Positions 628 through 16,949 of a DNA stretch of 64,000 nucleotides are shown piece after piece. The notes under the pieces are model-generated. The model had not been told where the DNA came from. It ran no database searches and was given only the letters and a program-made list of their open reading frames with translations. The stretch comes from Nesterenkonia salmonea (GTDB lineage: Bacteria; Actinomycetota; Actinomycetes; Actinomycetales; Micrococcaceae). Positions within the stretch are counted from its first letter, which is position 1, and each line of letters opens with the position of its first letter. Location of the stretch: NCBI RefSeq assembly GCF_005771525.1, contig NZ_VAVZ01000001.1:57628-121627 (forward strand), read 5' to 3'. The position numbers and the translations under genes are program-made.

Positions 628-1884
628 CTAGCGTGAAAAGCTGCTTCCACCTGGTCCGGGGTTGGACCGCGTTTGTACAGCCATCACCGGTGCATGGAGG
701 ACGCTGCCCTCGAGAACGAGCTCGTTAAACAGCGCAATCCTCGATGGATCGCCCACCATCTCACCGGACACCACCCCCGATACGGGATCCTCTGAAGAAA
801 CGTGGAACTTTATTCCTGTTCGTGCCGCCGCGGCTGCTGCCTGCCTCACATTCTCACCAACCTGTGAAAGTCCCTCCCAGGTAAAGCTGACATTAACCTC
901 AGGGGCGGAGCCAGGTAGTGCCAAGTCGATGCCCTCGGCCTCAGCCGCACTGCGAAAAAGCTCATCTCCTAGCTCACTGATACAACATGGCGAGGCCAAA
1001 TACTGAACGTGCATCCACGGACGCTCGGAGGTATCAACGAGAACTGGTCTGGAAACTGCCGTTGATTCCGTGAAGTTATTCACCACGACATCGGCGGACA
1101 TGACGCTCAAACCTGGGCAAGATCGCCAAACCTCCTCGGCGAATTCCCGAAGTTCAGGATGAATTTCGTGTAAAACCTCTGCAGCAGCCGAATTCGAGCG
1201 CCACGGCCCATGCGGCAAAAGCACAGCCGAAAAGAGTCGTCCTTCAGCCAGGAGCAGGCGCACATACTGACCGGAGACTCGCTCCTCAACCATGAACCGA
1301 TACGTGCCTCGGGTTCGCGTGCTGCTGCTGGACCTAGGGGTCAGCAACTGGGTAAATGCGTAGGAAGCAGTCGTGAAATCTTCTCGCGAAGTGGGGACTT
1401 TCCTCAAGTATTCGATCGCTTGTTCAAGTTGCTCTTCATCTCTGATGTCTGGCATTACCTCCACCGTTGACTCTCCGAGCATTGGTTTCACGACAACTGG
1501 ATAGCCAATACTCGCCGCAAATACCTTGGCATGAGAGGCCCCTCGCTTCAGCGAAAACGACCTAGCCCTCGGCACAGGAACTCCCGCCTCTTCTACGATG
1601 TCCCGGCGCATCCGCTTGTCTTGCATTAACGTGGCCGACGAGAGCCAGGTTCGATTGGGCACACCGTGGGCGAAAGCCAAACCAGCGGTGTGATCATCTC
1701 CGGCATATGCCATGAGCGCTTGCCCCGGAAAAAGCAGAGTGTTCAGATCATGCCGTAGCGCAGAGGCATGCATCACCCATCCGTCAAGAAGATCCGAGGG
1801 GCACTCGTGCAAGGGAGTGGGCAAACCAGTGGAGACGGCACGCAGTGGCGCTGGACGAATAGGGGCAACCTGGTCACTTGCCAT
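628..1884 (-). CDS. ATP-grasp protein, CphA-like with an altered metal-binding motif
   Basis: This 418-residue protein has an ATP-grasp core from about residue 85 to 320. A VVVKP segment at 130-134 supplies the ATP-binding lysine, and VEERVSGQYVRLLL near 199-211 matches the central strand of cyanophycin-synthetase-like ATP-grasp domains. At the end of the domain, where active members have ExN followed by MH, it reads VDTSERPWMH (283-292): Glu is replaced by Asp284 and Asn by Ser. Enzymes of this fold join a carboxylate to an amine with ATP; the substrate is unknown. I chose the ATG at 1884 because GAGGAG precedes it by seven bases. The start overlaps the stop of the upstream fusion gene by 11 bases, so the two are translationally coupled. 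The Asp/Ser substitution may mean altered or lost catalysis. No signal peptide is seen. Confidence 0.8.
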   Translation of the reverse strand: MASDQVAPIRPAPLRAVSTGLPTPLHECPSDLLDGWVMHASALRHDLNTLLFPGQALMAYAGDDHTAGLAFAHGVPNRTWLSSATLMQDKRMRRDIVEEAGVPVPRARSFSLKRGASHAKVFAASIGYPVVVKPMLGESTVEVMPDIRDEEQLEQAIEYLRKVPTSREDFTTASYAFTQLLTPRSSSSTRTRGTYRFMVEERVSGQYVRLLLAEGRLFSAVLLPHGPWRSNSAAAEVLHEIHPELREFAEEVWRSCPGLSVMSADVVVNNFTESTAVSRPVLVDTSERPWMHVQYLASPCCISELGDELFRSAAEAEGIDLALPGSAPEVNVSFTWEGLSQVGENVRQAAAAAARTGIKFHVSSEDPVSGVVSGEMVGDPSRIALFNELVLEGSVLHAPVMAVQTRSNPGPGGSSFSR

Positions 1885-4687
1885 CGTTCTGCTCCTCAAG
1901 TCGGTCCTCGAGCTCTTCAGGACTCAACAGGTCATCAATCTCCTGCAGGTCAGAAAGCTGTTCTGGTTCCGTTGACGTCTCCTCGACCGATGAGTCACTC
2001 TCTTCAAAGTCAGAGAGATCTGTATTAGCCCCAGGTTCGAATGCTACGCCGCCCCGGTCATCTGAATCTTCGTCAAAAAGAACGAACTCATCGAGTTCAG
2101 GTAACTCAGAAGTATGGACAGACTTGACCGATTCAGGAGCTGCTTTTGGCGGCCCCAAAATAGCGACAGTCGCCATCGCCGTAGCAGCGGCGGTCGGGCC
2201 ACTGACGAGGGCCTCGGCTTGGCGTTCCCCTGTGTTTCGGAACCATCCCGAAAGGCCTGATTTAGATGCTCGGCGGGTGAACCACTTTCCGTAGCCAACG
2301 CCGGTGACGCCACCGTGTATGGTGAGCCGCAGATTCAGCGTTTCCGCTCGTTCCGGCCAAGACTCCAAACCAAATGCCTCGACGCAGCGCAAAATGAACT
2401 GCTCTGACAGTCGCCTAGGAGTTCCGTACACAGGGTATTCGGCGACTGGAAGCGCTGCCATAGCGTTGATTTCGCAGATGGCTCCATCCTGTTCATCCAG
2501 AGGCTTCGTGTGATCCTCCAGGAGAAAGTCAACTCCGCAGTACCCCATTCCTGGTACTGCCTTGACGGCTCTTACACTCGCTTCTTTGATGCTCGGATGC
2601 AGCTCATCCAGGATTTCTACTGACTCGCCCCCCTGTGTCAGGTTGTTGGTACTGAGTAAGTAGATTCTCTGACCTGCGGGTATCACGCTGTCGATGGTGT
2701 ATCCCTGCTTTCCAAGCTGATAAGCAACAGATGCGTCCCATTTGATCTTGAGCGGTCCCAAGTGAGAATTTTGCCGGCGGGCCACATTCTTCTCGATCAT
2801 CAGCTGCCCAACGGTCTGGACCCCATCGCCCACCACGTTTGCGGGGATTCTCTGAACTGCTGCAGCAACTTCATCACCAATCACCATGATGCGGTAGTCG
2901 CCACCGTTGATGTGCTTCTCGACGATGAATTCATCGTTGCCATGGGCAGTTCTAGAGAACATCCGCAATGCTTCCGTCAGCTCGGAGTCGCTACCGATGT
3001 TGGCAGTGACCCCAACACCCATAGAACCCTCAGCGGGCTTCAGGACGACCGGATACCCAATGCGTCGTGCATAGCTCAGCGAAATCTCGTGGTCCCCCCC
3101 ATGGAAAGTTCGGCCCTCTGGCACCGGGCAGCCAGCCCTCCGAAGCAGAATTCGGGTGGACTCCTTATGTTTCGCAACGGAGGACGCGACAACACCTGAC
3201 AATGGCCAGCGAGTCGTCCTAAAAGGCAGCTGAACACCGGCCGTGTCCGAGACCATGATGCTTGACTTCGTGAAGCGCCAACTATTGAGGCCCCGGGCTA
3301 AAGCCTCACGCTCAACGATATGGCCATGGACGGCATAGGCGCCGATGGGAGAGATGTAGTCGACATCGTCATATGTGTTGGGTTCGAGACCAGGTGTTGC
3401 ATCAGACGGTATAGACGGGTGAAGAATACGGCCTCTTGCTTGGGAAACCAGGGCCTGGTAATCCAGTGCAAGTCCTGTCCCTTGCCGCAACAGGGGGCTC
3501 CTCCGCAAACGTGACAGTCTCCGAGTGCCACGGAACTTTCGTTCCACTTCAGCAGACGCCCCCACGAATCGAGCGTTGGGCAGAGCTTTGGCCAAGTCAC
3601 GGTGGACCATTTGCGTCACTCGTGACGCTCCAGGGAATTGAGAGACCACGATTTGACCCTCTGGCGAGATCTTCTTGAAGTTCTCTGCTATCTCGATTGA
3701 CCTTAGGATCCCTCCGAGCTCTGCCGGGCGGATGTTCAACATCCGGAGAGTCCCCTCCTCAGACCCAAGCATGTCGGCAGTGTCACTCGGTCCCGCGCTG
3801 CGCGGAAGAATCGTTACTCCTGATGAGCCTGCCACCCGTTGGGCCAAGCTGTCCGCCACACTCTGCAATTCGGCAGACCGCTCCAGGTCATGCCGAGCCA
3901 GGAGGTTTTGTAGGACTATTTGGGACGGTAGCTTTCCCCCTGCCGCTAGGTGAGCGACTTCTTCTACAATATGGCGGGCGGAATCGAATGCGAGCTTTCC
4001 TCGAAAATTAAACCAAATGGGCTGAGCTGCTGCCGAGGGTCGGATGGCGCGACGGGCCGTCGCTACAAGCTGGAAGTGCTCCAGATCCTCGGTGATGTCC
4101 TCGCCCCCGACCAACCGTAGGGGCGTCTTGGCTCCGCGAACCCGTTTCTGGAAGTACTCGTCGATTTTGCTCGGGTCACGATGCCTCATGACAGGCGGCA
4201 CCGGTGCAGTGACAAGACGACGTCTGCCGAGTAAATCCACGAAAGTGACACCCTTGGCTTTCGCGGCTAAGTCCAGCAGGGCCGTCTCGATGCCCATGAT
4301 CGTGGCCCTCGACCTAAAGAGTGGATTGAATTCATCCTTGTCCGCCGCGTCTTGCAACAGCCTGGTGTGACCTCTAATGTCATCAAGTGGATGTCTTAGA
4401 GATAGCGACTGGCCGACTAAGCCTGCGAGCGCGTCGTCTAGGAAAGGCCAAGACCTATCGTGCAAATCTCCTGTCTGATTTGGTCGAGGTTGGGCTTCCC
4501 CCAGGCCGAAATAGCTCACTCCATGCGACGTTTCCCCACGAACGCTGACGAGGTAGTTAAACGGCGCAACCGAGCGCTGGGCGTTTTCCGCCGCCAAGTC
4601 CATGGGCACACGGAACGCGATTGCTTCAGCCTGCGTTATCGTCAGTTTCTCAGGCGATCTTCCCCAGTGGGGCAGCGAAAGCCTCAT
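1874..4687 (-). CDS. Enolase-superfamily-like domain fused to a CphA-like ATP-grasp ligase
   Basis: This 937-residue protein has three parts. Residues 15-370 align by eye with the enolase superfamily (dipeptide epimerase / muconate lactonizing branch), including ATIMGIETALLDL and an LNIRPAELGG block. The expected catalytic residues are replaced: the KxK position is TPLRL (188-192), the Asp/Glu/Asp metal ligands read Asn227, Gln260 and Arg296, and the last lysine is Arg320. Residues 500-775 form a cyanophycin-synthetase-type ATP-grasp with GYPVVLKP (Lys550), a glycine-rich loop, RIPANVVGDG and an intact EIN metal motif (739-741), so this half looks active. The last 80 residues are very acidic. 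The start ATG shares TAATG with the smc stop, so translation is coupled. Inference: a peptide or amino-acid ligase with an inactive epimerase-fold partner domain. The substrate is unknown. Confidence 0.85.
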   Translation of the reverse strand: MRLSLPHWGRSPEKLTITQAEAIAFRVPMDLAAENAQRSVAPFNYLVSVRGETSHGVSYFGLGEAQPRPNQTGDLHDRSWPFLDDALAGLVGQSLSLRHPLDDIRGHTRLLQDAADKDEFNPLFRSRATIMGIETALLDLAAKAKGVTFVDLLGRRRLVTAPVPPVMRHRDPSKIDEYFQKRVRGAKTPLRLVGGEDITEDLEHFQLVATARRAIRPSAAAQPIWFNFRGKLAFDSARHIVEEVAHLAAGGKLPSQIVLQNLLARHDLERSAELQSVADSLAQRVAGSSGVTILPRSAGPSDTADMLGSEEGTLRMLNIRPAELGGILRSIEIAENFKKISPEGQIVVSQFPGASRVTQMVHRDLAKALPNARFVGASAEVERKFRGTRRLSRLRRSPLLRQGTGLALDYQALVSQARGRILHPSIPSDATPGLEPNTYDDVDYISPIGAYAVHGHIVEREALARGLNSWRFTKSSIMVSDTAGVQLPFRTTRWPLSGVVASSVAKHKESTRILLRRAGCPVPEGRTFHGGDHEISLSYARRIGYPVVLKPAEGSMGVGVTANIGSDSELTEALRMFSRTAHGNDEFIVEKHINGGDYRIMVIGDEVAAAVQRIPANVVGDGVQTVGQLMIEKNVARRQNSHLGPLKIKWDASVAYQLGKQGYTIDSVIPAGQRIYLLSTNNLTQGGESVEILDELHPSIKEASVRAVKAVPGMGYCGVDFLLEDHTKPLDEQDGAICEINAMAALPVAEYPVYGTPRRLSEQFILRCVEAFGLESWPERAETLNLRLTIHGGVTGVGYGKWFTRRASKSGLSGWFRNTGERQAEALVSGPTAAATAMATVAILGPPKAAPESVKSVHTSELPELDEFVLFDEDSDDRGGVAFEPGANTDLSDFEESDSSVEETSTEPEQLSDLQEIDDLLSPEELEDRLEEQNDGK

Positions 4688-7600
4688 TATGCATCCTCCA
4701 ACTCGCGGTTCAATCGCTGGGACACTACACGAGTCGAGCCGTCCTGTCGCATGGACACCCCGTAGAGCGCATCAGCTATCTCCATGGTCCGCTTCTGGTG
4801 GGTAATCACAATCAATTGTGAACTCTCTCTAAGCTCTTCGAAAATCACCAGCAATCGTGAGAGGTTCGTGTCATCCAAGGCGGCTTCCACCTCGTCCATA
4901 ACATAGAACGGACTGGGCCTCGCTTTGAAGATTGCCACTAACAAGGCGACTGCCGTCAGGGAGCGCTCACCACCGGAGAGCAGCGAGAGCCGCCGGATTC
5001 GTTTTCCTGGAGGTCTGGCTTGGACTTCTATACCAGTGTTGAGCATGTCCTCGGGGTTCGTGAGCTCCAACCGTCCTTCGCCACCGGGGAACAAGCGAGC
5101 GAACACTCTCTCGAATTGGACTCGAGTGTCCTCCCACGCTTCGGAGAAAACTTTGTGCACCGTCGTGTCCACCTCAGCGATGATGTTGAGCAGATCCTGT
5201 CTGGATGTCTTCAGGTCAGTGAGCTGACCCTGAAGGTAGGTGTGTCTCTCCTCCAGGGCGGCGTGTTCTTCCAGTGCCAGCGGGTTGACCTTGCCCAGTG
5301 CCTTCAAATCTCTCCTGGCACGTGAAAGGCGCTGCTCCTGCTCCGTCCGGACATAGGGCCGTTCGGCCTGATCTTTGTCCCCTTCAGCATCGAGATCCGG
5401 GACACCCTGATCGGGCCCATAATGCTCGATCAGGTATTCGGCTGTGAGACTCAGTTCTTCCTGCGCGCGGGACTCAGCTGCCTCCAGGGCGAGTCTGAGT
5501 TCGGTTTGCTTCAGCTCCGCCTGGTGCAGACGCGCGGTGATCTCCTCCAGCTGTGCGGACTCCCCTGCCCGAGCTTCCATCATCTCGGCCACCTGTGACC
5601 TCAGCTGCTCGTGCTGCTGCTGAGCGTCGGCGCGGGCGCGGTCGATTCTCTCCAATTGCACTTCAATTCGCTCCACAGCATCCTGGGCTTCCTCGGCGAT
5701 CTGCTCCGCCTGCTCAGCCTGTTTGTGACGCGCCTCGGCTGCCCGTCGTGCCTGCTCCTGGCGGTGTTCCTCGGCTTGGGCTGAACGGCGCAGAGCGGCG
5801 GCGCGCTCCAAGAGCTGTTTGTGCTCTTCTTCAGCCGCCCGCAGGGCAAGCCTCGCGTCGACTTCGCTGCGCCGTAGTTCTGAGGCTCGTTCAGCAAGGC
5901 TGTCCCGCTCCGCGGTCGATGGCTCTTCTACCAGCTCCTCGTTCTCTGCTGCCTCCAACCGAACAGTGACTTCCTGAAGCTGCTCCTGGGCATCCGCCGC
6001 CGCAGTCTCAGCATCCTCAATTTCCCGGCCGAAGCCATTGATCCGCTCCTGGGATCGGCTGACTTCGCGTTTGAGTCTGGCCAATTGCTCTGTGGAAGAC
6101 GCGATGGCCGTCTCATTGGACTGCACCGCGTCCGAGGTTTCACTGACGCGCAGCTCAGCGGCCGTCACCTCATCCTGACTGCGTTGCACGTGAGCATTAA
6201 TCGCGTCGAGCTCTTCAGCCGCGGATCTCAGCGTTGTCTGAAGCTGTTCCACCTGGCCGGTGAGCGTGGTCTCTGGGGCTAGTGCGGGACTGCCACTGAT
6301 CCGCTCTCCCTGCCTGATCACAGCCTTGTCGAGAGACAGTGCCGCCGCGGCGTCGCCTCGATCAACGAGTTCTACTCCGAAGGCTTTCTCATCTACGAGC
6401 ACCGCATCGGCGAGCGCCTCCCGGAGGGAATGGGCCAGCTGATCGGTGACGTGGACGACTTCTATGCTGAAGGCGGCACCTGGTTCATCTAATTTGACTG
6501 GCTCCTCTGCTGCCGCGATTGCGTCTTCCAGCGCCGACATCTTGGCTCGAGTCTCACTGACTCGGATCTCCAGACGACGCTGCTGGGCAAGCTGCTGATC
6601 GTGAGTAGCTTTGGTGTCCTGGTAGCGCTGCTGGGCCTCAGCCAACTCTTGCTGGGCGCCAGCATCGCCAGTTTCCACGCTCGCGATGTGCTGTTCGAGT
6701 TGTGCCAATTCAGCCTCGGTGCCCTCCAATGAGGCCTTTTCAGCATCCAGCTGCTCAGCAGCACGACGACGCCGCGACGCTGCCGCATCTGCCCGTCCCT
6801 GAGCAGTTTCCACCCTGCCCCGGAGAGTCGCCAGCCCCGCTCGTCGATCGGCCACAGCTCGTAGCTGCTCGTTGATGAGTGCTTCCTCTGCCTTGAGTGC
6901 GGCTTCAGCCTCTGCCCGGGAAGAGCTGATGCCCTCTAGGGCTACCTGGGCGTCTTGGACTGCTGCGTGCTTCGCATGTGCCTCGGAGCTGACCTGCTCG
7001 GCCTGGGCGCGCAACTGCTCAGGGTCCCGACCGCTGGTGTAGTCCACCGTGCTGGCGCTGCGCAGGCTGCGGGTGCGTTCCCGCGCCAGTGACACCACGG
7101 AACGAAGGCGCTCCTGAATCTGCGCCAGCCGATGATGTCCGCCGGAGAACTGTTCTGCCCGGGCGCGCTGTTCCTCAGCCTGCTGATTCAGTGCACCCAC
7201 CTGGGTGTCATAGTCGGCTAGACCAGACCTGAGTTCAGCGGCGGCTTCACGATCGGCGTGCTCACCCTGCGATGACGAGTGCAGCGCTGTGGCAGCTTGG
7301 ACGAGGTCATCGGCGATCAGCCGCGACAGCGCGTCGCGGACATCGTGTTGGATTCGCTGGGCCCGCCGGGCGACTTTTGCCTGCCTGCCCAATGGGGCAA
7401 GTTGCCGTGAGATTTCTCCAATGAGGTCTTCTAAGCGCTCTAGGTTGGTCTGCATCGACTCAAGCTTCCGCACCGAACGTTCCCTGCGGCGCCGGTGCTT
7501 GAGCACCCCGGCAGCTTCTTCGATGAAACCGCGCCGCTGCTCAGGGGTCGCCTGCAGAATCTGATCCAACTGACCCTGTCCAACAATGACGTGCATCTCC

Positions 7601-8004
7601 CGGCCCAGACCTGAGTCGGAGAGCAGCTCCTGAATATCCAGCAGCCGGCACTTGGTGCCGTTGATCGTGTACTCGGACCCGCCTGAGCGGAACATGGTCC
7701 GCGAGATCGTGACCTCTGTGTAGTCAATTGGCAGCAGGGCATCCGAATTGTCTATCGTAAGGCTGACCGAGGCCCGGCCCAGCGGCTGACGTTCAGAGGT
7801 GCCGGCGAAGATCACATCTTCCATGGAGCCCCCGCGCAACGACTTAGCGCCCTGCTCCCCCATGACCCAGGCCAGAGCGTCGACCACATTCGACTTCCCA
7901 GAGCCGTTCGGCCCCACCACTGCAGTGACCCCAGGTCCGAATTCGAAAGTCGTAGCCGAGGCGAACGACTTAAACCCACGGACCGTCAGCGTCTTCAGGT
8001 GCAT
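4687..8004 (-). CDS. smc: Chromosome segregation ATPase SMC (short hinge)
   Basis: SMC folds newly replicated DNA as the core of the SMC-ScpAB condensin. The 1105 residues show the family layout: an N-terminal head with Walker A GPNGSGKSN (31-39), a long coiled coil rich in Glu, Ala, Arg and Gln from about 170 to 500, a hinge, a return coil, and a C-terminal head with the signature LSGGERSLTAVAL and Walker B FYVMDEVEAALD. The hinge (about 503-585) is only some 80 residues, roughly half the usual size, and the total is about 90 shorter than typical actinobacterial SMC. The usual neighbours rnc, mutM and ftsY are absent on both sides; ATP-grasp and surface-polymer genes sit there instead. The start ATG has a divergent gene 124 bp away. 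Confidence 0.97.
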   Translation of the reverse strand: MHLKTLTVRGFKSFASATTFEFGPGVTAVVGPNGSGKSNVVDALAWVMGEQGAKSLRGGSMEDVIFAGTSERQPLGRASVSLTIDNSDALLPIDYTEVTISRTMFRSGGSEYTINGTKCRLLDIQELLSDSGLGREMHVIVGQGQLDQILQATPEQRRGFIEEAAGVLKHRRRRERSVRKLESMQTNLERLEDLIGEISRQLAPLGRQAKVARRAQRIQHDVRDALSRLIADDLVQAATALHSSSQGEHADREAAAELRSGLADYDTQVGALNQQAEEQRARAEQFSGGHHRLAQIQERLRSVVSLARERTRSLRSASTVDYTSGRDPEQLRAQAEQVSSEAHAKHAAVQDAQVALEGISSSRAEAEAALKAEEALINEQLRAVADRRAGLATLRGRVETAQGRADAAASRRRRAAEQLDAEKASLEGTEAELAQLEQHIASVETGDAGAQQELAEAQQRYQDTKATHDQQLAQQRRLEIRVSETRAKMSALEDAIAAAEEPVKLDEPGAAFSIEVVHVTDQLAHSLREALADAVLVDEKAFGVELVDRGDAAAALSLDKAVIRQGERISGSPALAPETTLTGQVEQLQTTLRSAAEELDAINAHVQRSQDEVTAAELRVSETSDAVQSNETAIASSTEQLARLKREVSRSQERINGFGREIEDAETAAADAQEQLQEVTVRLEAAENEELVEEPSTAERDSLAERASELRRSEVDARLALRAAEEEHKQLLERAAALRRSAQAEEHRQEQARRAAEARHKQAEQAEQIAEEAQDAVERIEVQLERIDRARADAQQQHEQLRSQVAEMMEARAGESAQLEEITARLHQAELKQTELRLALEAAESRAQEELSLTAEYLIEHYGPDQGVPDLDAEGDKDQAERPYVRTEQEQRLSRARRDLKALGKVNPLALEEHAALEERHTYLQGQLTDLKTSRQDLLNIIAEVDTTVHKVFSEAWEDTRVQFERVFARLFPGGEGRLELTNPEDMLNTGIEVQARPPGKRIRRLSLLSGGERSLTAVALLVAIFKARPSPFYVMDEVEAALDDTNLSRLLVIFEELRESSQLIVITHQKRTMEIADALYGVSMRQDGSTRVVSQRLNRELEDA

Positions 8005-8128: not shown

Positions 8129-9304
8129 ATGTCTCATGAGTTGTCCCCCTCGCCGAGGAAACCGCCTTACCCTATGCGACTCGCCCAGCGCTTGCTGCAG
8201 AACGCCAAGGACCCGCTGGGCATCCCCCAGCGCACAGCCAAGACCTACCGGTACCGCCGGCGCCAGTTCGGCGCAGCGCGCCGGTTTCTGCGCAAAGAGT
8301 TCCGTTGGGAGACCGAATGGGGTAACCGGAAACCAGATTGGTGGCGCAGAGGGTTCCTGTCGCGGTCAGTGACGCTCTATCAACTGCCGGACAATGACCC
8401 CTCGCTCTACATCAATGACGTCCAGCGGTACTTCCGCACCAAGCGGATGGTCAACCCTCATCTGCAGGAAGTGCTGAACAACAAGTTCTCCTTCTTCCTG
8501 CTGGTGAAGAACCTCGGGTTGGACTCTGATGTGGTGGACCTTCTGGGCCTGCACACCCGCGGACATGTGCACCCATTCCCGCAGAGCAGGCGCATCCCGG
8601 TTGATCAGTTCCTCGCAGAAATCCTCAGCGAACGGCAGCACATCTTCGTCAAGCCACTGCACGGTGCGGAAGCCAACGGAGTGCGATCTCTGAAAGTCTC
8701 CGACGGCGAATACCGGATGGACGGCCAGCCCAGCAGTATCGAGGAGATGGCCAAGTGGGTGCGCGACTTCCCCCGCCCGGTGCTGTTCGAGGCTGCGATC
8801 ACCCAGCACGATGACCAGGCGTACCTGAACTCACACTCCACCAACACCATCCGACTGCTGACCATGCCTGATGTCACCGATGACCACACGCCCTTTATTG
8901 CCCGAGCCTCACAGCGGATCGGGTCAGTGCGCTCCGGGCACATCGACAACTGGACTAAGGGTGGCCTTTCAGCCAATGTCGATTTGGAGACTGGGAAGCT
9001 CTCCGCCGCAGCGCAACTGCCTGAGGGCAACGATCTCCAGTGGTTTGCTGAGCACCCGGACTCGGGGGCGCGAATCCAGGGTCACCAGGTGCCGTTCTGG
9101 GAGGAGACCAAGCAGCTCGTCCTGGACGCCGCTCATCGGTTGGCGTTCATGGAGTACATCGGCTGGGACATCATCATCACCAAAGACGGCCCGGTCATTC
9201 TGGAGGCAAATATCAACTCTGGAATGAACGTGCTGCAGGTCCACGGACCGCTTCTGGCCGACCCGCGCGCCGCAGCCTACTATCGGGCCAGGGGCGTGGT
9301 CTAG
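8129..9304 (+). CDS. Sugar-transfer-associated ATP-grasp protein
   Basis: This 391-residue protein matches the ATPgrasp_ST family, found next to sugar transferases in polysaccharide loci. Visible family blocks are FFLLVKNLGL near the start of the domain, IFVKPLHGAEANGVRSL (ATP-binding lysine and glycine-rich loop), NTIRLLTM, the GG-SANVD segment, and the end motif GWDIIITKDGPVILEANINSGMN written here in part (ILEAN supplies the Glu-x-Asn metal ligands). These suggest a working ligase, with unknown substrate. I chose the ATG at 8129; the frame stays open upstream but that part lies inside smc and is not family-like. A second ATG lies 15 codons in. The stop is shared with the convergent gene through a CTAG at 9301-9304, leaving no room for a terminator between them. 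Confidence 0.85.
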   Translation: MSHELSPSPRKPPYPMRLAQRLLQNAKDPLGIPQRTAKTYRYRRRQFGAARRFLRKEFRWETEWGNRKPDWWRRGFLSRSVTLYQLPDNDPSLYINDVQRYFRTKRMVNPHLQEVLNNKFSFFLLVKNLGLDSDVVDLLGLHTRGHVHPFPQSRRIPVDQFLAEILSERQHIFVKPLHGAEANGVRSLKVSDGEYRMDGQPSSIEEMAKWVRDFPRPVLFEAAITQHDDQAYLNSHSTNTIRLLTMPDVTDDHTPFIARASQRIGSVRSGHIDNWTKGGLSANVDLETGKLSAAAQLPEGNDLQWFAEHPDSGARIQGHQVPFWEETKQLVLDAAHRLAFMEYIGWDIIITKDGPVILEANINSGMNVLQVHGPLLADPRAAAYYRARGVV

Positions 9305-9813
9305 GTCTTCTCCAGAGGGGTGTGCAGCCTGGTGAGCGCGAACAGGGCAGACATCTGTTCACGCTTACCAGCTGCTGCGTCTATCAGACCTGCCCGTTCG
9401 GTGCCGGCGAAGTTCTGCACCGCCGTCAGGACAAGGGGGTCCGTGGTCACCAGATGCGTCACCACAGCCGCCAGGGGGTGATCGAGGTCATTCTCTGAGC
9501 CGACCACCAACACTGTGGGCACACTGTGCCGTTCAGCCTCGATCAGCACCTCACGCCATGAACGCGGTATCCGGGCCTGGTCCGGGATTCGCGCCACGAC
9601 GACGCCGCATCGCCTCACCCATTCTGGCTTCGCTTCTGCACTGGTGAGATCAGTGGTGGGAGCGTTCAACCGCAGCTGGCCGAGGGCACCGATTCGAGGA
9701 GCGACGACGCTGCGCGCCCGACGTCCGAGCCGCCGACCTACTCTTTTGGCCCGACGTACCGCAGGCAGCACGCGTGTACCCATCCACGTGGTTTCTAGGG
9801 GCTTATCAGGCAT
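9301..9813 (-). CDS. Hypothetical protein in polysaccharide locus (possible truncated glycosyltransferase-like)
   Basis: I do not recognise this 170-residue protein. The first 45 residues are strongly basic (KRVGRRLGRRARS). The rest alternates strands and helices, with hydrophobic strand CGVVVARIP, then PTVLVVGSENDLDH and VVTHLVTTDPLVL, loosely recalling the nucleotide-sugar side of GT-B glycosyltransferases, where a lone N-terminal half would be too short to act alone. The ATG overlaps the end of the asparagine-synthase-like gene by eight bases, so it is the third gene of a coupled run with the two genes upstream. It ends on a stop shared with the convergent ATP-grasp gene. It is real by position and codon pattern; its function is unknown. 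Confidence 0.65.
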   Translation of the reverse strand: MPDKPLETTWMGTRVLPAVRRAKRVGRRLGRRARSVVAPRIGALGQLRLNAPTTDLTSAEAKPEWVRRCGVVVARIPDQARIPRSWREVLIEAERHSVPTVLVVGSENDLDHPLAAVVTHLVTTDPLVLTAVQNFAGTERAGLIDAAAGKREQMSALFALTRLHTPLEKT

Positions 9814-11539
9814 GTCCGATCCTCATGGGGTCCGCTGCACTGAGCGTAGTGCTGTACTGCTCCAGCCAGAGTGTGAGCATCGCCAGGCCTCGGATCAGAT
9901 GTTGGGAACGCTGACTGTTGAGCAGTCTCTGCCAGACCACAACTCCGTGGGCTGACCCCGGGTCTGCGGCGGCAAGCTCTGCTGAGAGCAGTCCTGCGGC
10001 CGGCCCTCTACGGATCACTCCCGCTAAGTACCTCGCGCCTTCGCGGCTGGCGATCCTGCGTTTGTGGTGACGAGTTCCGGTAAGGTCATCCGCGGTGGCC
10101 ATGCCCCGCAGTGCGGGGTCAGCGGCGGCAAGGAGTTTGGGGTACCAGGCACCGTCGGCCTTGACGTGGTGGGGCAGTTCCAGGGCACGCTGGGCTACCT
10201 GGTCGATGACCATGGGCATCAGCGTGGGTTGAGCTCCGCCGAGCACCTTGGCTGGTGCCGGAGAAATCCCGGGGACGGTGCGAAGCAGGTAGGAGGTCAG
10301 GGTGTGCGCGTTGGGGTGGTCGGCATACCGTTCAGCAGTGGGCCGCGCCCCGCTGTAGGCGCGCTCCTCTACGGAGGCGGCAGTCCTACCCTCCATGACC
10401 TTATGGGCCTCGGTGAGGTACCGGGAACGGGCCTGGACTCTGCTGAGCATCAGCTCATGCCTGCTGACGTGGGACGCCCCCACCGGGTCAGCAAATCCTC
10501 CGCCCAGAAGTACTCCCCCGCCGATCCCGTCAAAAATAGCCCCAGGGCTCTTCCGCAGTTCACGGACTACCGGCATCAACCAGAAGTGGAACGATGCCTG
10601 GTAGTCCACGGCCTCGGCATAGTCGGCGAAGTCTTCTCCGAATTGGTCGTAGCGGCCAGTGATGATGCGGTGGTCCACACCGAGGGTCTCAGCGACCTCG
10701 GATGCGACAAGTTCCTCGAGGGCGGACCCAGCATCCGAGCTGGTTGACCAAGCTGTGAGTTTCTTCCGGTCAGCGCTCTCCCGGGCGGCCAGCGCGGTCA
10801 ACATCCGTGAATCTCGGCCTCCAGAAAGCATGGGGTTAGCTGACCCGCCAGCGTGGGTTCCATCAAGGTGAGGCCGCATGTGAGAGGCCATCGCCTCAAT
10901 GGTCTCCCTGGTGACCTCATCCAGGTTGGGGCCGGCCTGTGGGACATAGTCTTCCCAGGGCCAACGCTGCTGCTTCAGCTGCACAGCGCCGGTATCCGTG
11001 ACCTCGGCGTACTCCATGGGCATCAGGCGTCGGATCTCAGTGAAAGTCGTGCGGCCGGACAATGGTGCCCCGAACGCAAGAATCTCGCTCCATGCTTGCC
11101 AGTCCGGGGTGAGAGTCTCCGCCGTCTCAACCAACCACCGCAGCCTGGTGGAGAAGAAAACTGCTGAATCGGCGGTGTGGACGTAGAGCACCTGGCATCC
11201 GGAGACACTTCCGTGGACTATGCCCGTTCCTCGTGCGGTGGTGCGCAGTCCGCAGGCTTCAGCTTCCCTAGCGGTCTGCTCCCAGGGCTGCCCCAGCAGC
11301 TGGGAATCGATCTGCCCTGCGGCGTTCCACGCTGCACCCAGGCTGCGTTCGGCCCGGCTCACGGCAGCCGCAGCAGTCACTCGAAGCGTCAATCCTGGCA
11401 ATAGGTAAGAGGGATCCCACAAGACGCCCTCAGCCTCTGCGAGTTCAGCCATCCGGTCCGCGCGTTGCCGATGCGCTTCGGTCATGCGTCCGAACACGCC
11501 GCACACAGCCGTGGGCTGCAGACTATGCGGCGCCGTCAT
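9806..11539 (-). CDS. Asparagine-synthase-like amide ligase
   Basis: From the ATG at 11539 the protein has 577 residues. The C-terminal half is an asparagine-synthetase-type adenylating domain with the PP-loop LSGGRDSR (238-245) and a GIGGG block; the middle carries the usual GRTTFTEIRRLMP connection. The N-terminal half is a weak match to the class II glutaminase fold: it lacks the usual RGPD and NGE(I)YN stretches. If the ATG is used, CGVFG lies at 13-17 and there is no terminal cysteine; a GTG at 11506 would instead start the protein MCGVFG, the normal glutaminase N terminus. The ATG overlaps the upstream stop (ATGA), favouring the longer form without glutaminase activity. Members of this fold also make beta-lactam and other amide bonds. 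Here it probably amidates or acylates a surface-polymer unit; that is inference. Confidence 0.82.
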   Translation of the reverse strand: MTAPHSLQPTAVCGVFGRMTEAHRQRADRMAELAEAEGVLWDPSYLLPGLTLRVTAAAAVSRAERSLGAAWNAAGQIDSQLLGQPWEQTAREAEACGLRTTARGTGIVHGSVSGCQVLYVHTADSAVFFSTRLRWLVETAETLTPDWQAWSEILAFGAPLSGRTTFTEIRRLMPMEYAEVTDTGAVQLKQQRWPWEDYVPQAGPNLDEVTRETIEAMASHMRPHLDGTHAGGSANPMLSGGRDSRMLTALAARESADRKKLTAWSTSSDAGSALEELVASEVAETLGVDHRIITGRYDQFGEDFADYAEAVDYQASFHFWLMPVVRELRKSPGAIFDGIGGGVLLGGGFADPVGASHVSRHELMLSRVQARSRYLTEAHKVMEGRTAASVEERAYSGARPTAERYADHPNAHTLTSYLLRTVPGISPAPAKVLGGAQPTLMPMVIDQVAQRALELPHHVKADGAWYPKLLAAADPALRGMATADDLTGTRHHKRRIASREGARYLAGVIRRGPAAGLLSAELAAADPGSAHGVVVWQRLLNSQRSQHLIRGLAMLTLWLEQYSTTLSAADPMRIGHA

Positions 11540-12747
11540 GGGGTGACACCTAGCCACCGGAGGCGTTCCACGTGCCGGCCCGGCCCATGATCGACAGCGA
11601 ACTGCTGTCCTCGCTGTGATTGGGCGAGAAACGCCTCATGGTCCATCCAGTACTGGTCGATCAGGCCTTTGACCTCGCCAGGCTCGGCGTAGACGGCCGC
11701 ATCCCCAAAGATCTCGCGCAGATAGTGGGGCAGCATCACCAGGCATCCTGCTGCGAGCGCTTCCATGATGGCTCTGCCGAAAGCTTCGCTCCACCCTGGA
11801 TGGTGCATATAGACCCAGAAGTCGATTCGCTGGAGGAACTCAGCCGGGGCTTCGGCGCCGAAAGGCTGGACCTGCCATGTCTTGGGAACCTCACCAAGGA
11901 TCTCTTCGGGAACTGCGGCGCCTCCGAGCACCTCCACCCGGTAGTGGGTGCTGTCCGGGTACGCAGCCAGGATGTCTTTAGCTGTCGCGGGCCACTTCTC
12001 CTTCTCCGGCCGGGAGTGCCGGCCGATCACCGGTCGGTCGGTGACGAAACCCGCCCTCGGCGTGATGACAACCTCTTGGCCGAAAATATTGGCCCAGTCC
12101 TGGTCGGCGATGTTCAGACCAGGGACTCTCTGCGCCAGGAGACTCGAGCGCACCACAGGGCTGATGGGCGCCCATTGTGCCTGGACTTTGAACGTCTCGA
12201 AAGCCTTCTTCTCGACGTCTTGTACGGAGTAGTGCCAGGTACCTTCAGCGTCGATCGCAGGATGGTTCGCCACGATCACGACCTGATCGACTGAGATCTT
12301 GCCGAATCTGGCGGCACTGGTGCCGATGACTGTGGGGTGCCGGATCACCAGTAGCGCGGCGTCCAACTCAGCTCGTGGGGAGACGATGTGAACCCCAGGC
12401 AGTCCCATGACCGATTGGATATGGCGGCTGAACCCGGTGACCGTGGTGGTCACCACAGATTGGGCGTGAATAAGAGCAGTGGAGAGCCCGGCGGCGGACT
12501 GTGCACGCACTTCCTCCGCGATCGAAGCAGTTGTGCCGCCTCGGAGCCGGAAATCAGAGAGTATGGCGACGTCGACTCGCCGCACAGGTTCCCGGCCGGC
12601 CTGCTGCATCTGTGCAGCCATTGTGCTCACTTCACCTGCGAGCTCAGCGACTTGGGTGTGGAGTGCCTCACTTTCGGCTCCGGTGATCCGCCGGCGGAGC
12701 CGACCCAGTGTGCGGCGCAGATCCGTGGTTCGGTTCATCAACGCCAC
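11536..12747 (-). CDS. GT-B glycosyltransferase (GT4-like)
   Basis: This 403-residue protein has a short basic N terminus, a coiled stretch at about 25-50, then a GT-B fold. The first half begins VDVAILSDFRLRGGTTASIAEE, quoted only in part, where the glycine-rich turn is typical of GT4-like enzymes. The second half ends with the sugar-nucleotide motif SEAFGRAIMEALAAGCLVM followed by YAEPGE. It likely moves a sugar from a nucleotide donor to a growing surface glycan in the cytoplasm; donor and acceptor are unknown. The C-terminal half is clearly related to the C-terminal part of the 943-residue transferase at 20774. It is the first gene of a coupled minus-strand trio and overlaps the next gene by ATGA. 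Its start faces the divergent gene at 12780, so a promoter region of some 30 bp or an overlapping one must serve both. Confidence 0.88.
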   Translation of the reverse strand: MALMNRTTDLRRTLGRLRRRITGAESEALHTQVAELAGEVSTMAAQMQQAGREPVRRVDVAILSDFRLRGGTTASIAEEVRAQSAAGLSTALIHAQSVVTTTVTGFSRHIQSVMGLPGVHIVSPRAELDAALLVIRHPTVIGTSAARFGKISVDQVVIVANHPAIDAEGTWHYSVQDVEKKAFETFKVQAQWAPISPVVRSSLLAQRVPGLNIADQDWANIFGQEVVITPRAGFVTDRPVIGRHSRPEKEKWPATAKDILAAYPDSTHYRVEVLGGAAVPEEILGEVPKTWQVQPFGAEAPAEFLQRIDFWVYMHHPGWSEAFGRAIMEALAAGCLVMLPHYLREIFGDAAVYAEPGEVKGLIDQYWMDHEAFLAQSQRGQQFAVDHGPGRHVERLRWLGVTP

Positions 12748-12779
12748 TGTATCGCCTTATAAGCGTTAAGCTGTGGATC

Positions 12780-13895
12780 GTGCCTGCGCTGACAACTGTG
12801 CCCGATGCTGACCGCCCTATCGGCAAGTTCGTTGTGGACTCTGTGCTCCCGAGGTGGGACAACATCAACACTTTCCGTCGCGCATTCCCGCACAGCCGCA
12901 TGATGACTGCGATGCTTCAGCGCCGTCGAGTCCACGTCCACCAGTTCAAGGGAATCGTGGCCGCCTTTCTCTATAACGGAGAGATTGTGGGTGGACGCAG
13001 CGGGCGCTTGACCACCCTGGTCAGTGATCAGGCGCTGGAAGCCTGTAATTCTAAGAGTTTGGCGCGCCAGTACTTCACAGCCGCGGGAGTTCCTGTCCCT
13101 CCAGGGCAGGTCTTCACCAGCGACCAGGAGGAGGTCGCTGCGGAGTTTGTGCGCGCACCAGGCCCCTGGGTGGTGAAGCCTGACACCGGGCGGCGTGGCC
13201 GCGGTGTGCATTTCAACGTCACGGAGGACACATTCGAGGCCTCATGGGCAGCGGCATTGAGCGCAATCCCACGAACCGCTCGGAGCCCCAAGCAACTCCT
13301 CATTGATCAGTTTCTGGACGCATTGTGCGTACGCTTCTTTGTGGTCGGCAGCGCCGTCCAAGCAGCCGCGGTGCGCGTTCCGGCGTTCGTGGTCGGTGAC
13401 GGGACACGCACCATCAGCGCACTTCTCGAAGAGTCCTTCGCAGCACGGGAGGCACACCCGCTGCTGCGCAAAACTCTGCCCGAGATTGACCAGAGCTTGC
13501 TGGAGACCACCGGCTGGTCGTTGGATCAGGTGCCCGCGGCAGGTGATCTGGCGCTACTCGGAACCGATGGGGACATGACCAGGGGCGGCATACCCGTTGA
13601 TGTCACTGACGAGGTCAGCTCCGAACTCAATGAGCTGGCCATTCGCGCAGTTGACTCGATCCCGGGCTTAGTGGCGGCAGGCATCGATATCCTAGCCCCT
13701 GACCTGAAGAGTGCTCAGGGCGCCGTCGTACTCGATGCCGATGCCTGGGCTAAGACGACCATGCACAGGTATCCCGCACTTGGACGGCCCCGGGGTGCCG
13801 GTGTCATCGCCGTTGCTGAACACATCAAGCTGCGAGCCCTGCACTGGGACAAACCGGCTCTCCCTCCAGAACCTCAGGACCCTGACGACGACTAG
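12780..13895 (+). CDS. ATP-grasp protein, CphA/RimK-like
   Basis: Taken from the GTG at 12780 this is a 371-residue protein. An ATP-grasp core runs from about 80 to 345: WVVKPDTGRRGRGV (130-143) holds the ATP-binding lysine and glycine-rich loop, VRVPAFVVGDG matches the CphA-type central strand, and the domain ends LDADAW...MH (318-329). Active relatives have Glu-x-Asn there; here it is Asp-x-Asp, which could still bind magnesium. It resembles the 418-residue protein at 628 more than the other ATP-grasps in this locus. The start is uncertain: the frame stays open to 12708, overlapping the divergent glycosyltransferase, and the residues just before 12780 (KLWIV) look like a first beta strand, so a start slightly upstream is possible. 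The reaction is presumably carboxylate-amine ligation with unknown substrate. Confidence 0.75.
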   Translation: MPALTTVPDADRPIGKFVVDSVLPRWDNINTFRRAFPHSRMMTAMLQRRRVHVHQFKGIVAAFLYNGEIVGGRSGRLTTLVSDQALEACNSKSLARQYFTAAGVPVPPGQVFTSDQEEVAAEFVRAPGPWVVKPDTGRRGRGVHFNVTEDTFEASWAAALSAIPRTARSPKQLLIDQFLDALCVRFFVVGSAVQAAAVRVPAFVVGDGTRTISALLEESFAAREAHPLLRKTLPEIDQSLLETTGWSLDQVPAAGDLALLGTDGDMTRGGIPVDVTDEVSSELNELAIRAVDSIPGLVAAGIDILAPDLKSAQGAVVLDADAWAKTTMHRYPALGRPRGAGVIAVAEHIKLRALHWDKPALPPEPQDPDDD

Positions 13896-13944: not shown

Positions 13945-15321
13945 ATGAAAGCGAGATTCATGAACGCACTATCCACCCTCAGGCGACGCGCCCTCGGCGT
14001 TGCTCGGCGGGCTCGGCAGGCTATCCGGCGTCCGGAAAGCCCCGCTGCCACTGCTGTGAGCTCGGAAGCGGCCTCTAAGATCTTGTTTGTGGGGCATACC
14101 CGCTTCAGCGTTCACCAGTTCGGGTCCCGGTACTTCAACGCCACCAGAGATGGAGATGCTGGAGCAGGTTTCAGCGAAGATCAGTACACGCAGTGGTTGT
14201 ACAGCGATGAGCGCATGGACCCGCGGACCGAGATCTTCACCCAGCTCAGTCTCCCCCAGCTGGCCCAGGCCGCTGAAGACTTCCACGTGGTCCACTACGT
14301 GTCCTACTCCCCGTCGCTACCGGAGAGGCACAAGAAAGCGCTGCGCCAGGCCGCCCGCACCTATGACTTCGTGGAACTCAACGAAACCAAGAAAACCGTC
14401 TCCTCCACACCCACCAAGAGCCTGATCCGCAAGGCCGCACAGAAACATCACTTCACGTCCGGCCCCATCGGCGTTTACCGGCTTGATGACGACGACGTGC
14501 TCTCGGTGAACTACTTCCACCTCATGGCACCCTATGTTCGGCGCAGTCACATTGGCTGGTGGGTCTCCCAGGGGCTCGGTATTGCCGCGGTGCGGTTCGG
14601 TGAGGACTTTGTGTACGCCCGGGACTACTACTACCCCAAGAGTGCCTTCGGCCCGCTGTGCATCGCTGGATACGACCAGGGAGAGGTCAGCCACACGCAG
14701 GCACCGAAACACACAGTGATGGACCACACCAACCCGACCATCCTTGACTCCCGGGAGCCGGCGTATTTCCATATCCGGCACCGGGGTCAGGACAGCACGC
14801 TGGGTGGAAAGCCCACACCGTTCTACCCCGAGGCCATGATGCGCATCCGCAGTGAGGGCCCAGCGGACCTTGATCAGGTCCGCACACTGTTCCCCGTGGT
14901 CGCTGACCGGATGCGCCTGACACCGGGCAGAGACGAAGACGCCGTTACTTTTGACCCAGGAAGTGTCACCGCCACCAGCGAACCCGTGAGCTACTTGTGG
15001 GAGAAACCCGGAGCTCTTGCCCTCCGTGTTGAGCTTCCCGACCGCGTAAAGCTGAAGCAGCGCCAGCTGAAGGTGAGTTTCTCCACCACCCAAGACGCTG
15101 CCTGCCAGTACTCCAAAGAACAGGAACAGGAGTTCTTCGCCGCCGCGAAAGTCGCATCAGATGACGGTGACTACTCGACGTGGGTGCCCCACCAGAGCAC
15201 GGGCCTGGGCCATATCCTCTTCCTCGAGCCCCCGCAGGGAGTTCGCATCACCAATCTGAGACTCCACACTGACCAGCACGAGCCGCTCACCATCCAGCGC
15301 GTGACCGCCTACCCACTATGA
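13945..15321 (+). CDS. Putative rhamnosyltransferase-like glycosyltransferase
   Basis: This 458-residue protein resembles the putative rhamnosyltransferase family (PF11316 type): after a basic 45-residue lead it reads ILFVGHTRFSVHQF, then VHYVSYSPSLPERHKKAL and the acidic motif YRLDDDDVLSVNYF, which would bind the metal and nucleotide sugar as the DxD motif does in GT-A enzymes. A C-terminal segment of about 130 residues after the transferase core resembles a beta-rich accessory domain. It is a paralogue of the gene at 16946, with the same block order. Its stop overlaps the next start (ATGA), making it the first of four overlapping plus-strand genes. The sugar and acceptor are inferred only from the family name. 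Confidence 0.78.
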   Translation: MKARFMNALSTLRRRALGVARRARQAIRRPESPAATAVSSEAASKILFVGHTRFSVHQFGSRYFNATRDGDAGAGFSEDQYTQWLYSDERMDPRTEIFTQLSLPQLAQAAEDFHVVHYVSYSPSLPERHKKALRQAARTYDFVELNETKKTVSSTPTKSLIRKAAQKHHFTSGPIGVYRLDDDDVLSVNYFHLMAPYVRRSHIGWWVSQGLGIAAVRFGEDFVYARDYYYPKSAFGPLCIAGYDQGEVSHTQAPKHTVMDHTNPTILDSREPAYFHIRHRGQDSTLGGKPTPFYPEAMMRIRSEGPADLDQVRTLFPVVADRMRLTPGRDEDAVTFDPGSVTATSEPVSYLWEKPGALALRVELPDRVKLKQRQLKVSFSTTQDAACQYSKEQEQEFFAAAKVASDDGDYSTWVPHQSTGLGHILFLEPPQGVRITNLRLHTDQHEPLTIQRVTAYPL

Positions 15322-16949
15322 CTTTCGGACCCCTTCATCAGCTCTCGGCGCGCGTTCAGGGGCTCTTCAAGAAACAGGATGCGTCCCTGGCGGCCCAGCT
15401 GTGGCGTGAGTACACAGCTGACCCCGCACGGCATCCGCGCATCCCCAACGTGTCTCACGCCGGATACCAGATGGGTAACCAGCCGCTCCCCGACCTGAAG
15501 GGCCCGGTGTTTCGCGTCGAAGAGTTCGGCGCTGTCCCTGACCAGACCAACGGATGCGACGAGGCTGTGGCTGCAGCTCTTGACGCGGCAGAAAAGGCTG
15601 GCGGCGGCGTCGTCCTATTCCCCGAAGGCACCTTCCACTTCTCCTCAGTGATATGGGTTCACGCATCCAATGTGGTGCTCCGCGGAGCTGGCCAGGGTAA
15701 GACCACCCTGTACTTCACACAACACCTCGATGCGGCATACCGCACCTCACGAATGGGCGAATGGTCCTGGACCGGCGGGCTGGTGTGGTTCCTGCCCCGT
15801 GAGGTGAAAGCCGAACTCGAGGCCTCCGACTGGGCGTGGGGAACCAACGAAGGATGGATCGAGAACCGCGAACTGGCCAAGGTGACGAAACCTGTGGGCC
15901 GCGGCACACAGCGGATACCGGTCTCAGACACCACTGACATCACACCAGGCGATGAGGTCATCCTCTCCGTCACCAATACACCTGGCAACAGCCTCCTGTC
16001 CCACCTATGCGGGGATCTGCCTCAGGACAGCTACGACTTCGCCCAGCTGGCCAGCTCCTTGCGCAAACAGAGGAACTACCGCCAGTTGCGCTGGCCGGTG
16101 CGCGTCGACCAGGTGGAGCCCAACATGCTGGTCCTCGCGCAGCCCACGAAAATCGACCTGCGACCCGAATGGGACCCTACGGTGGCCTCGCTCGGCCCCC
16201 ATGTGCGGGAATCGGGGATCGAGGACTGCACGATCCGCATGCGAGCTGCCGAGCAGCAGCCCCACAACCAAGACCACGGTTTCAACGGACCGCACTTCCA
16301 GGCGGCACTGAACTGCTGGGCACGCCGCGTTGAGGTCATCGACGCTGACAACGGCTTCGGGTTCACCTCAGCCAAAGGCATTACCCTCCATCAGGTCTCT
16401 GTCAGCGGACGGGCACGGCACCACAGTTTCATCTGCCGAGAACAGAGCCACGACTGCCTTATTCACGAGTTCTCAATCCCACCCGCGACCACCGAACTAG
16501 CGCCAGAGGCCCTCACCCACGGGCTCAATGTGGAAGGGTACTCCTCAGGCAATGTCTGGTCCGATGGAGATATGGAAGGGACATTTGATTCCCACCGGCG
16601 AGTTCCGTTCGACAATGTGCGCACCTGCATCACACTTAGGAACACTGGCTCCCTGGGCGGGGCGAAGAAAGCCGGTCCGCATTGGGGAGCCCGCTTTGTG
16701 CACTGGAACGTGGAGGTGACCAATAAGCGCGCCTTCGCGGTGCGCCTGGAGCAGCACGCGCCCTACAGCGCCATGGTCGGCGTGATCGGCCCCACCAAGC
16801 CGCACCCAAAGCCCCGTGAGTTCTCAGGGGACCTGCACTCCGTCCTCGTCGACGTGGGCACCACCGTCTCCCCGCGGAATCTATATCTCGCCCAACTGAA
16901 GCATCGGTTGGGTCCATCATCAGCACGCATGCGGAAGGAACAGCTGTGA
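15318..16949 (+). CDS. Pectate-lyase-fold (right-handed beta-helix) protein
   Basis: This 543-residue protein has the pectate-lyase-3 / GH28-related fold. The opening strand pattern FRVEEFGAVPDQTNGCDEAV (66-85) is the family hallmark, followed by GGGVVLFPEGTFHFSS and VVLRGAGQGKTTLYF. Further rungs follow (IEDCTIRM, RRVEVIDADNGFGF, ITLHQVSVSG, NVWSDGDMEGTFD). Such proteins cleave, epimerise or bind acidic polysaccharides. There is no clear signal peptide, which is odd for a polysaccharide-degrading enzyme and suggests it works on an intracellular intermediate or leaves with the polymer. It overlaps both neighbours by four bases, between two rhamnosyltransferase-like paralogues. The specific reaction cannot be read from the sequence. 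Confidence 0.82.
   Translation: MTFGPLHQLSARVQGLFKKQDASLAAQLWREYTADPARHPRIPNVSHAGYQMGNQPLPDLKGPVFRVEEFGAVPDQTNGCDEAVAAALDAAEKAGGGVVLFPEGTFHFSSVIWVHASNVVLRGAGQGKTTLYFTQHLDAAYRTSRMGEWSWTGGLVWFLPREVKAELEASDWAWGTNEGWIENRELAKVTKPVGRGTQRIPVSDTTDITPGDEVILSVTNTPGNSLLSHLCGDLPQDSYDFAQLASSLRKQRNYRQLRWPVRVDQVEPNMLVLAQPTKIDLRPEWDPTVASLGPHVRESGIEDCTIRMRAAEQQPHNQDHGFNGPHFQAALNCWARRVEVIDADNGFGFTSAKGITLHQVSVSGRARHHSFICREQSHDCLIHEFSIPPATTELAPEALTHGLNVEGYSSGNVWSDGDMEGTFDSHRRVPFDNVRTCITLRNTGSLGGAKKAGPHWGARFVHWNVEVTNKRAFAVRLEQHAPYSAMVGVIGPTKPHPKPREFSGDLHSVLVDVGTTVSPRNLYLAQLKHRLGPSSARMRKEQL

Follow-up and report, generated by a model that had tools for sequence, protein, structure and literature searches.

The closest described relatives of the protein reported here belong to several distinct systems. 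Cyanophycin synthetases (CphA1 and CphA2) carry an ATP-grasp module, the G domain. Dipeptide epimerases (1jpm, 3jva, 3ro6, 3q45) and other members of the enolase superfamily such as muconate-lactonizing enzymes (MLE) combine an alpha/beta cap with a modified TIM barrel, in which three metal-binding carboxylates stand at successive strand ends and, in the epimerase/MLE branch, lysine bases flank the substrate. Poly-gamma-glutamate synthesis involves a CapB-like Mur ligase, a capsule protein of the CapA/PgsA type (the PGA_cap family) and a glutamate racemase, and acylphosphatases rely for catalysis on the Arg of a GVGFR loop and the Asn of a GWxRN motif. In a stretch of 64,000 nucleotides from the actinobacterium Nesterenkonia salmonea (contig NZ_VAVZ01000001.1, positions 57,628 to 121,627; hereafter the window), we analysed a gene whose product joins parts of these systems: an enolase-fold domain without any of the expected catalytic residues, a CphA-like ATP-grasp ligase domain, an acylphosphatase-like (AcP) domain and an acidic tail. 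Judged from its sequence, this is a new domain layout assembled from known parts. An earlier note on this DNA had reported the open reading frame (ORF), which is indeed uninterrupted, and had recognized the pseudo-epimerase and the CphA-like ligase in it; it had missed the AcP domain and, in the genomic context, a small ATP-grasp partner, intact sister ligases and sister proteins in which the enolase module is joined to PGA_cap, Mur ligase or TupA domains.

The enolase fold of residues 1–435 is secure on the strength of profile and model comparisons. On its own, the window sequence matched Pfam MR_MLE_N (3.6e-5; 24.4 bits against a cut-off of 22) and gave no Pfam match to MR_MLE_C, to which 17 of the 26 members of the family did match. 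The profile built on 26 family domains matched solved MLE and epimerase chains (3r0k, 3.4e-16), including the L-Ala-D/L-Glu epimerase 1jpm (1.3e-13). The AlphaFold model of residues 1–435, calculated with the 26-domain alignment as input (predicted local distance difference test, pLDDT, 87.6; predicted template-modelling score, pTM, 0.90), has the cap and barrel of the superfamily. Its best Foldseek match in the PDB was L-talarate dehydratase (3cb3, 4.3e-18), and the dipeptide epimerases 3ro6, 3q45, 3jva and 1jpm were among the best 50 matches listed, with template-modelling (TM) scores of ~0.6 by query length and 0.64–0.78 by target length at 14–20% identity. The fold proposed in the earlier note was thus confirmed; with matches spread over several superfamily enzymes, dipeptide epimerases are less certain as the nearest subgroup than the fold itself.

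Twelve relatives of the domain keep an intact site with the pattern R-x-K ... D ... E ... D ... K, that is, with RxK where dipeptide epimerases have KxK. The window domain retains none of the five catalytic and metal-binding residues and, unlike dipeptide epimerases, is fused to a ligase. The metal-binding carboxylates are replaced by N227, Q260 and R296 and the two lysine bases by V193 and R320. The claim that all catalytic positions are changed was therefore correct, including the residues Asn227, Gln260, Arg296 and Arg320, except that its "KxK to LRL" was one place off: the motif R-x-K has become R191-L192-V193, with R191 retained and the base lysine, the second Lys position, occupied by Val193. 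These residues lie at or just past model strands 190–193, 224–227, 256–260, 290–294 and 316–319, in the order of catalytic strand ends known from dipeptide epimerases. We considered an intact site elsewhere in the domain and saw none, the losses coinciding with the modelled strand ends. The same complete loss was found in all five rows of the Nesterenkonia clade (the window and four orthologues) and, as it recurs at 47–52% identity in the enolase-fold domain, it is not due to chance.

Residue losses also proved common among more distant relatives, a point that the earlier note had proposed to check. In a tree of 29 family domains and three other MLE-family proteins of the same genome, 15 domains formed one group (support 99/98), which we call P-type; the remaining 14 domains, perhaps more than one branch, we call A-type. 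Three very diverged domains without a full site (L065|12376, L071|12862 and L072|16665; L numbers are our labels for loci) were excluded from this tree and from the residue count, reducing 32 domains to 29, the outgroup L002 was excluded from the tree, and the enolase domains of twelve extra stretches (L081–L092) were mapped outside the catalytic-site scoring. All 15 P-type rows lack at least two of the five residues and none has both lysines together (four rows are gapped at position 191 or 193), with different members retaining different subsets, whereas 12 of the 14 A-type rows keep all five and two Haloechinothrix rows keep three. In a tree of the ATP-grasp domains, 16 P-type ligases grouped with four ligases whose N-terminus is shorter (20 members in all, support 99/99), so that loss of the epimerase residues follows the ligase class, both trees bearing long-branch warnings. 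L066|996 did not group with the ligases of shorter N-terminus. A P-type copy in L037 (3–2681) has its enolase part split over several frames and its ATP-grasp part open, and this broken copy was used solely for the ATP-grasp and AcP comparisons. In the two Haloechinothrix A-types (L068 and L070, 9893–12349) both lysines are gone and the three metal ligands are kept, a loss apparently independent of that in P-types.

The ATP-grasp domain, by contrast with the barrel, keeps its ATP- and Mg-binding residues. It matched 7wac in the PDB (1.3e-42), several ATP-grasp families in Pfam and, as best NCBIfam match, cyanophycin synthetase (1.5e-68 over residues 460–764). The two cyanophycin synthetase models scored 214 and 232 bits against cut-offs of 850 and 877, respectively, over residues 460–765 only. 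A plain annotation as cyanophycin synthetase was rejected given these scores far under the cut-offs and the lack of a Mur ligase domain, the part of CphA1 that adds Arg, for which Pfam gave no match in the window ligase; the protein also lacks a match to the CphA N-domain, the NCBIfam profile being covered at positions 167–467 only. Counting by hand along the 7wac alignment, we found that window K508, K550, R599 and R613 correspond to K220, K261, R309 and R323 of the cyanophycin synthetase TeCphA1, and N682, D720, E739 and N741 to its N394, D431, E450 and N452. Seven of these (K220, K261, R309, R323, D431, E450 and N452) are kept in 15/15 P-types, so that the ATP lysines, the Mg-binding Asp and Glu and the Arg for the chain carboxylate are present throughout, and N394 is kept in the window and seven other P-types and is Ser in seven. 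The earlier statement that the ligase retains its ATP lysine and EIN metal motif therefore holds for every ATP/Mg residue compared, N452 being presumably part of the ATP/Mg site.

The roles of the other residues are taken from the TeCphA1 structure paper: R323 and N394 hold the incoming aspartate, E215 and R458 hold the cyanophycin primer, and H267 and G456 steady reaction intermediates (PMC9427784). E215, R458, H267 and G456 are all changed in the window ligase, which further differs from CphA in its added enolase and AcP domains. Because R323 and N394 are kept while the primer-holding residues are changed, we infer that the ligase may be active and add an acidic amino acid to a chain other than cyanophycin. 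Taken together, the comparisons give good support to the view that a pseudo-epimerase domain, shared by a whole ligase class, is attached to a predicted ligase whose ATP/Mg residues are intact.

The AcP domain of the window protein keeps the Asn of its motif (GWFRN) and has lost the loop Arg (GVGYG), so it does not have the catalytic pair of an acylphosphatase enzyme. Among the 15 P-types, the final Arg of the loop is found in 12 (it is missing in the window, L056 and L049) and the Asn in 9, with both together in 8.

A smaller ATP-grasp paralogue (381–526 amino acids by longest ORF) adjoins the ligase in all 15 P-types. The partners are CphA-like as well: their profile matched 7lgm (3.9e-19), and the partner model (pLDDT 86.4) had 7wac as best Foldseek match (5e-11; TM 0.42 by query length). 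In an alignment of 16 partners, the 15 P-type neighbours and one from L069, the place of N452 is taken by the Ser of an S-E-R motif in all of them (SERP in 15), the window partner having SERP where its ligase has E-x-N. These partners also have a changed glycine loop and lack the region around N394, while R309 is retained in 16 and K261 in 15. The partner is probably an altered or non-catalytic ATP-grasp protein. In the model, its C-terminal domain has the order beta-alpha-beta-beta-alpha-beta, as in acylphosphatase. A small ATP-grasp gene, here without the S-E-R motif, also comes after two A-type ligases (L061 and L062). Among the extra stretches with P-like ligases, the partner was present in L085, L087 and L091 but was not listed among the genes of L081, L083 and L089, which have an ORF on the opposite strand in its place; L081 appears to represent the genome of L066, in which the partner is present.

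Relatives of the enolase module provide a possible context for the ligase. Pfam scans of ten other enolase-module proteins revealed fusions to PGA_cap in five (L064, L066, L069, L060 and L085), to a Mur ligase in three (L062, with AcP; L071; L072), to a TupA ATP-grasp in one (Haloechinothrix L068) and to a CphA-like ATP-grasp alone in one (L062|9944). An Asp/Glu racemase adjoins the P-type gene in both loci scanned for it (L067 and L091); the L067 locus also encodes an ATPgrasp_ST protein and a PGA_cap-ATP-grasp protein, and the latter type occurs as well in the locus of L059, a member of the window clade. These features recall poly-gamma-glutamate synthesis, from which the window system differs by its ATP-grasp ligase and the absence of adjacent PGA_cap and racemase genes. 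The likeness to teichuronopeptide (TupA) systems lies in the TupA-like and ATPgrasp_ST genes of the window and in the Haloechinothrix fusion; the window system differs in having enolase and AcP modules, which to our knowledge are not part of described teichuronopeptide systems. The analysis as a whole suggests that the ligase is likely to serve an envelope polymer.

The ligase gene lies directly downstream of the housekeeping gene smc, whose stop codon overlaps the ligase start in one base (TAATG), preceded by GGAGG, and its 3' end overlaps the partner gene by 11 nucleotides (Table 1). A scan for promoters and terminators found sites no more numerous than in shuffled sequences. The order smc-ligase was also seen in N. 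sphaerica L056 and N. sedimenti L057, on the basis of motifs, an smc-sized ORF occupies the equivalent place in L058 and L059, judged from its size, and SMC_N lies upstream of the P-type gene in N. alkaliphila L064. The CphA-like ATP-grasp gene beyond smc is possibly a further altered ligase, given the Asp residues at the places of both E450 and N452. In addition to the TupA-like gene and its glycan cluster, the window encodes rhamnosyl- and pyruvyltransferases, glycosyltransferases and a Wzm/Wzt- or TagGH-like exporter, which scored under the curated cut-offs. A beta-helix protein resembling pectate lyases and epimerases is encoded amid glycosyltransferase genes. In the three-gene run next to the ATPgrasp_ST gene, the outer two products had no match in Pfam or NCBIfam; by size comparison alone, a similar run occurs in L057 (1882–5334) and, in part, in L040 (7043–9989). 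Among the window genes scanned, neither PGA_cap nor a Mur-type polymer ligase is encoded beside the ligase, the sole Mur-superfamily match being the housekeeping gene folC.

Table 1 Features of the ligase locus and its neighbourhood; positions count from the first nucleotide of the window.
Feature	Position	Strand	Remarks
P-type ligase ORF	1874–4687	-	937 amino acids, ATG start, frame uninterrupted
Enolase/MLE-fold domain, residues 1–435	3383–4687	-	0/5 catalytic/metal residues kept
CphA-like ATP-grasp domain, residues 451–770	2378–3337	-	PDB 7wac match and TeCphA1 residue alignment
Acylphosphatase-like domain, residues 785–870	2078–2335	-	Pfam match over 787–869, 9.8e-10
Acidic tail, residues 871–937	1877–2077	-	Poorly conserved; 6/67 columns invariant (5 orthologues)
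Small partner	628–1884	-	418 amino acids from ATG at 1884 (start chosen here); altered ATP-grasp and C-terminal domain
smc	4687–8004	-	Housekeeping; directly upstream of the ligase
ATPgrasp_ST gene	8165–9304	+	Sugar-transfer associated; Pfam
Three-gene run	9301–12747	-	170 amino acids; 583 amino acids, Asn_synthase-like; 403 amino acids
CphA-like ATP-grasp neighbour	12708–13895	+	Asp at the places of TeCphA1 E450 and N452
Beta-helix protein	15318–16949	+	Pectate-lyase/epimerase-like
TupA-like ATP-grasp	19524–20777	-	Within the neighbouring glycan cluster
folC	27617–29047		Housekeeping; Mur superfamily

Our best overall explanation, to which we assign a probability of about 0.48, is a CphA-like ligase with a dead, chain-binding barrel that builds a poly-amino-acid polymer of the cell envelope. 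The N-terminal domain would descend from an epimerase-type MLE enzyme that lost catalysis. The ligase would activate the carboxylate at the chain end as an acyl phosphate and then add an acidic amino acid, and the barrel, with Arg, Asn and Gln in place of Mg2+ and the carboxylates, would bind the anionic chain end or the amino-acid donor without Mg2+ and present it to the ligase. In this picture the ligase would be complexed with its small partner, which would have a regulatory or chain-holding role. In the sister A-type proteins an intact epimerase would set chirality, the P-types only binding, and the product may be an envelope polymer akin to polyglutamate or teichuronopeptide, made of amino acids or bearing peptides. 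A broader version seems doubtful to us. In it, actinobacteria would have an undescribed family of poly-amino-acid machines centred on a single enolase-fold module that combines with ATP-grasp, Mur-ligase, PGA_cap and TupA enzymes. In the old P-type ligase lineage this module would have turned into a receptor that needs no metal, is lined with arginines and receives the lengthening anionic chain, working alongside an altered ATP-grasp partner; paralogues would then divide the tasks, A-types controlling chirality and P-types holding the chain.

Several observations weigh against a chain-binding barrel, and they are also those expected if the domain were a structural leftover that assists folding or oligomerization with the ligase and the partner and has no ligand pocket. 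In the window clade (n = 5), 62 of 250 barrel columns (25%) are invariant versus 185 of 320 (58%) in the ATP-grasp domain. The ratio of non-synonymous to synonymous substitution rates (dN/dS) for the barrel could be estimated for 8 of the 10 orthologue pairs and ranged from 0.14 (N. sedimenti versus N. alba) to 0.49–0.55 in two pairs, as compared with 0.05–0.22 for the ATP-grasp domain (3 of 10 pairs), with dS close to saturation. Moreover, other P-types keep differing subsets of the catalytic residues, and four ligases of the P group (L050, L051, L053 and L066|4648) have a shorter N-terminus weakly resembling the cap half alone (hhalign probability 46) and may have lost the barrel outright. 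Nevertheless, Q260, N261, R296, R320 and P321 are invariant in the window clade, which speaks against a mere leftover, as does a barrel dN/dS that remains below 1 in every estimate; R191 is invariant there too, and four of the five members have Asn at position 227. The invariance of three of the five catalytic sites against a 25% background is only suggestive, with a probability of ~0.1 by a hand-calculated binomial. By these measures the enolase-fold domain is retained, under weaker constraint than the ligase, and a disabled gene was ruled out by the open frame and the dN/dS values where they could be estimated. We regard a structural leftover as rather unlikely. The role suggested in the earlier note, recognition of a substrate or partner, stays the likeliest, with Q260, R296 and R320 fixed in all five sequences, on weak evidence that might also fit a structural remnant. 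That the domain has instead gained a new, metal-free chemistry based on Arg, Asn and Gln would agree with the polar residues that have become fixed where the strands end, but the lysine base is gone at both places in the window clade, P-types vary among themselves at the catalytic sites and we know of no metal-free reaction in the enolase superfamily; we consider it highly improbable.

The envelope-polymer part of the preferred explanation meets difficulties of its own. It leans on relatives and on the glycan genes upstream of smc because PGA_cap and racemase are not found beside the ligase: in the N. salmonea genome PGA_cap lies on other contigs (C61 and C52) and Asp/Glu racemase on contig C75, away from the ligase. 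Of the nine fusions to PGA_cap, Mur ligase or TupA, eight are on A-type proteins, one is in the unscored L085 and none is on a P-type. H267 of TeCphA1, important for CphA activity, is Met in the window ligase; according to the same structure paper, the related ligase GshF also lacks the equivalent His (PMC9427784). The product might alternatively be a small peptide, a cofactor or a protein modification, as ATP-grasp ligases serve many such pathways (PMC4431377) and an Asn_synthase-like gene with two unmatched neighbours lies close by. The fusions of sister enolase modules to PGA_cap, Mur ligase and TupA and the glycan and export genes surrounding the window ligase argue against such a product, which we judge unlikely.

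The domain is rare. Its profile (E <= 1e-20) was matched in 8 of 394 genomes sampled from the class, two of them Nesterenkonia (the window genome included) and six from one other family, and in 2 of 396 genomes of a phylum sample, again including the window genome. Within Nesterenkonia, 21 of 30 genomes matched at 0.001, strongly (E < 1e-100) in 9, among them the window genome, and weakly in the rest. The L060 sequence, labelled Rhodobacteraceae, comes from a metagenome-assembled genome, on a contig of 6.4 kb, and is perhaps misassigned. A search of open-licence papers by titles and the beginnings of abstracts retrieved no description of a fusion of ATP-grasp with an enolase fold or AcP, in agreement with the earlier note, which knew of no system with this layout; an earlier mention elsewhere is possible. 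The available portion of PMC2922099 does not mention enolase, epimerase, acylphosphatase or cyanophycin.

Within one family of fused ligases, these proteins form a natural series: some have a full epimerase site, others have lost part of it, and in others the barrel is entirely dead. Because the family covers this whole range, it allows a direct test of how a catalytic TIM barrel takes on another role. The family also points to an unstudied actinobacterial system with stereochemical control, possibly one that makes an envelope polymer, and several of the actinobacteria that host it have salt or alkali in their names.

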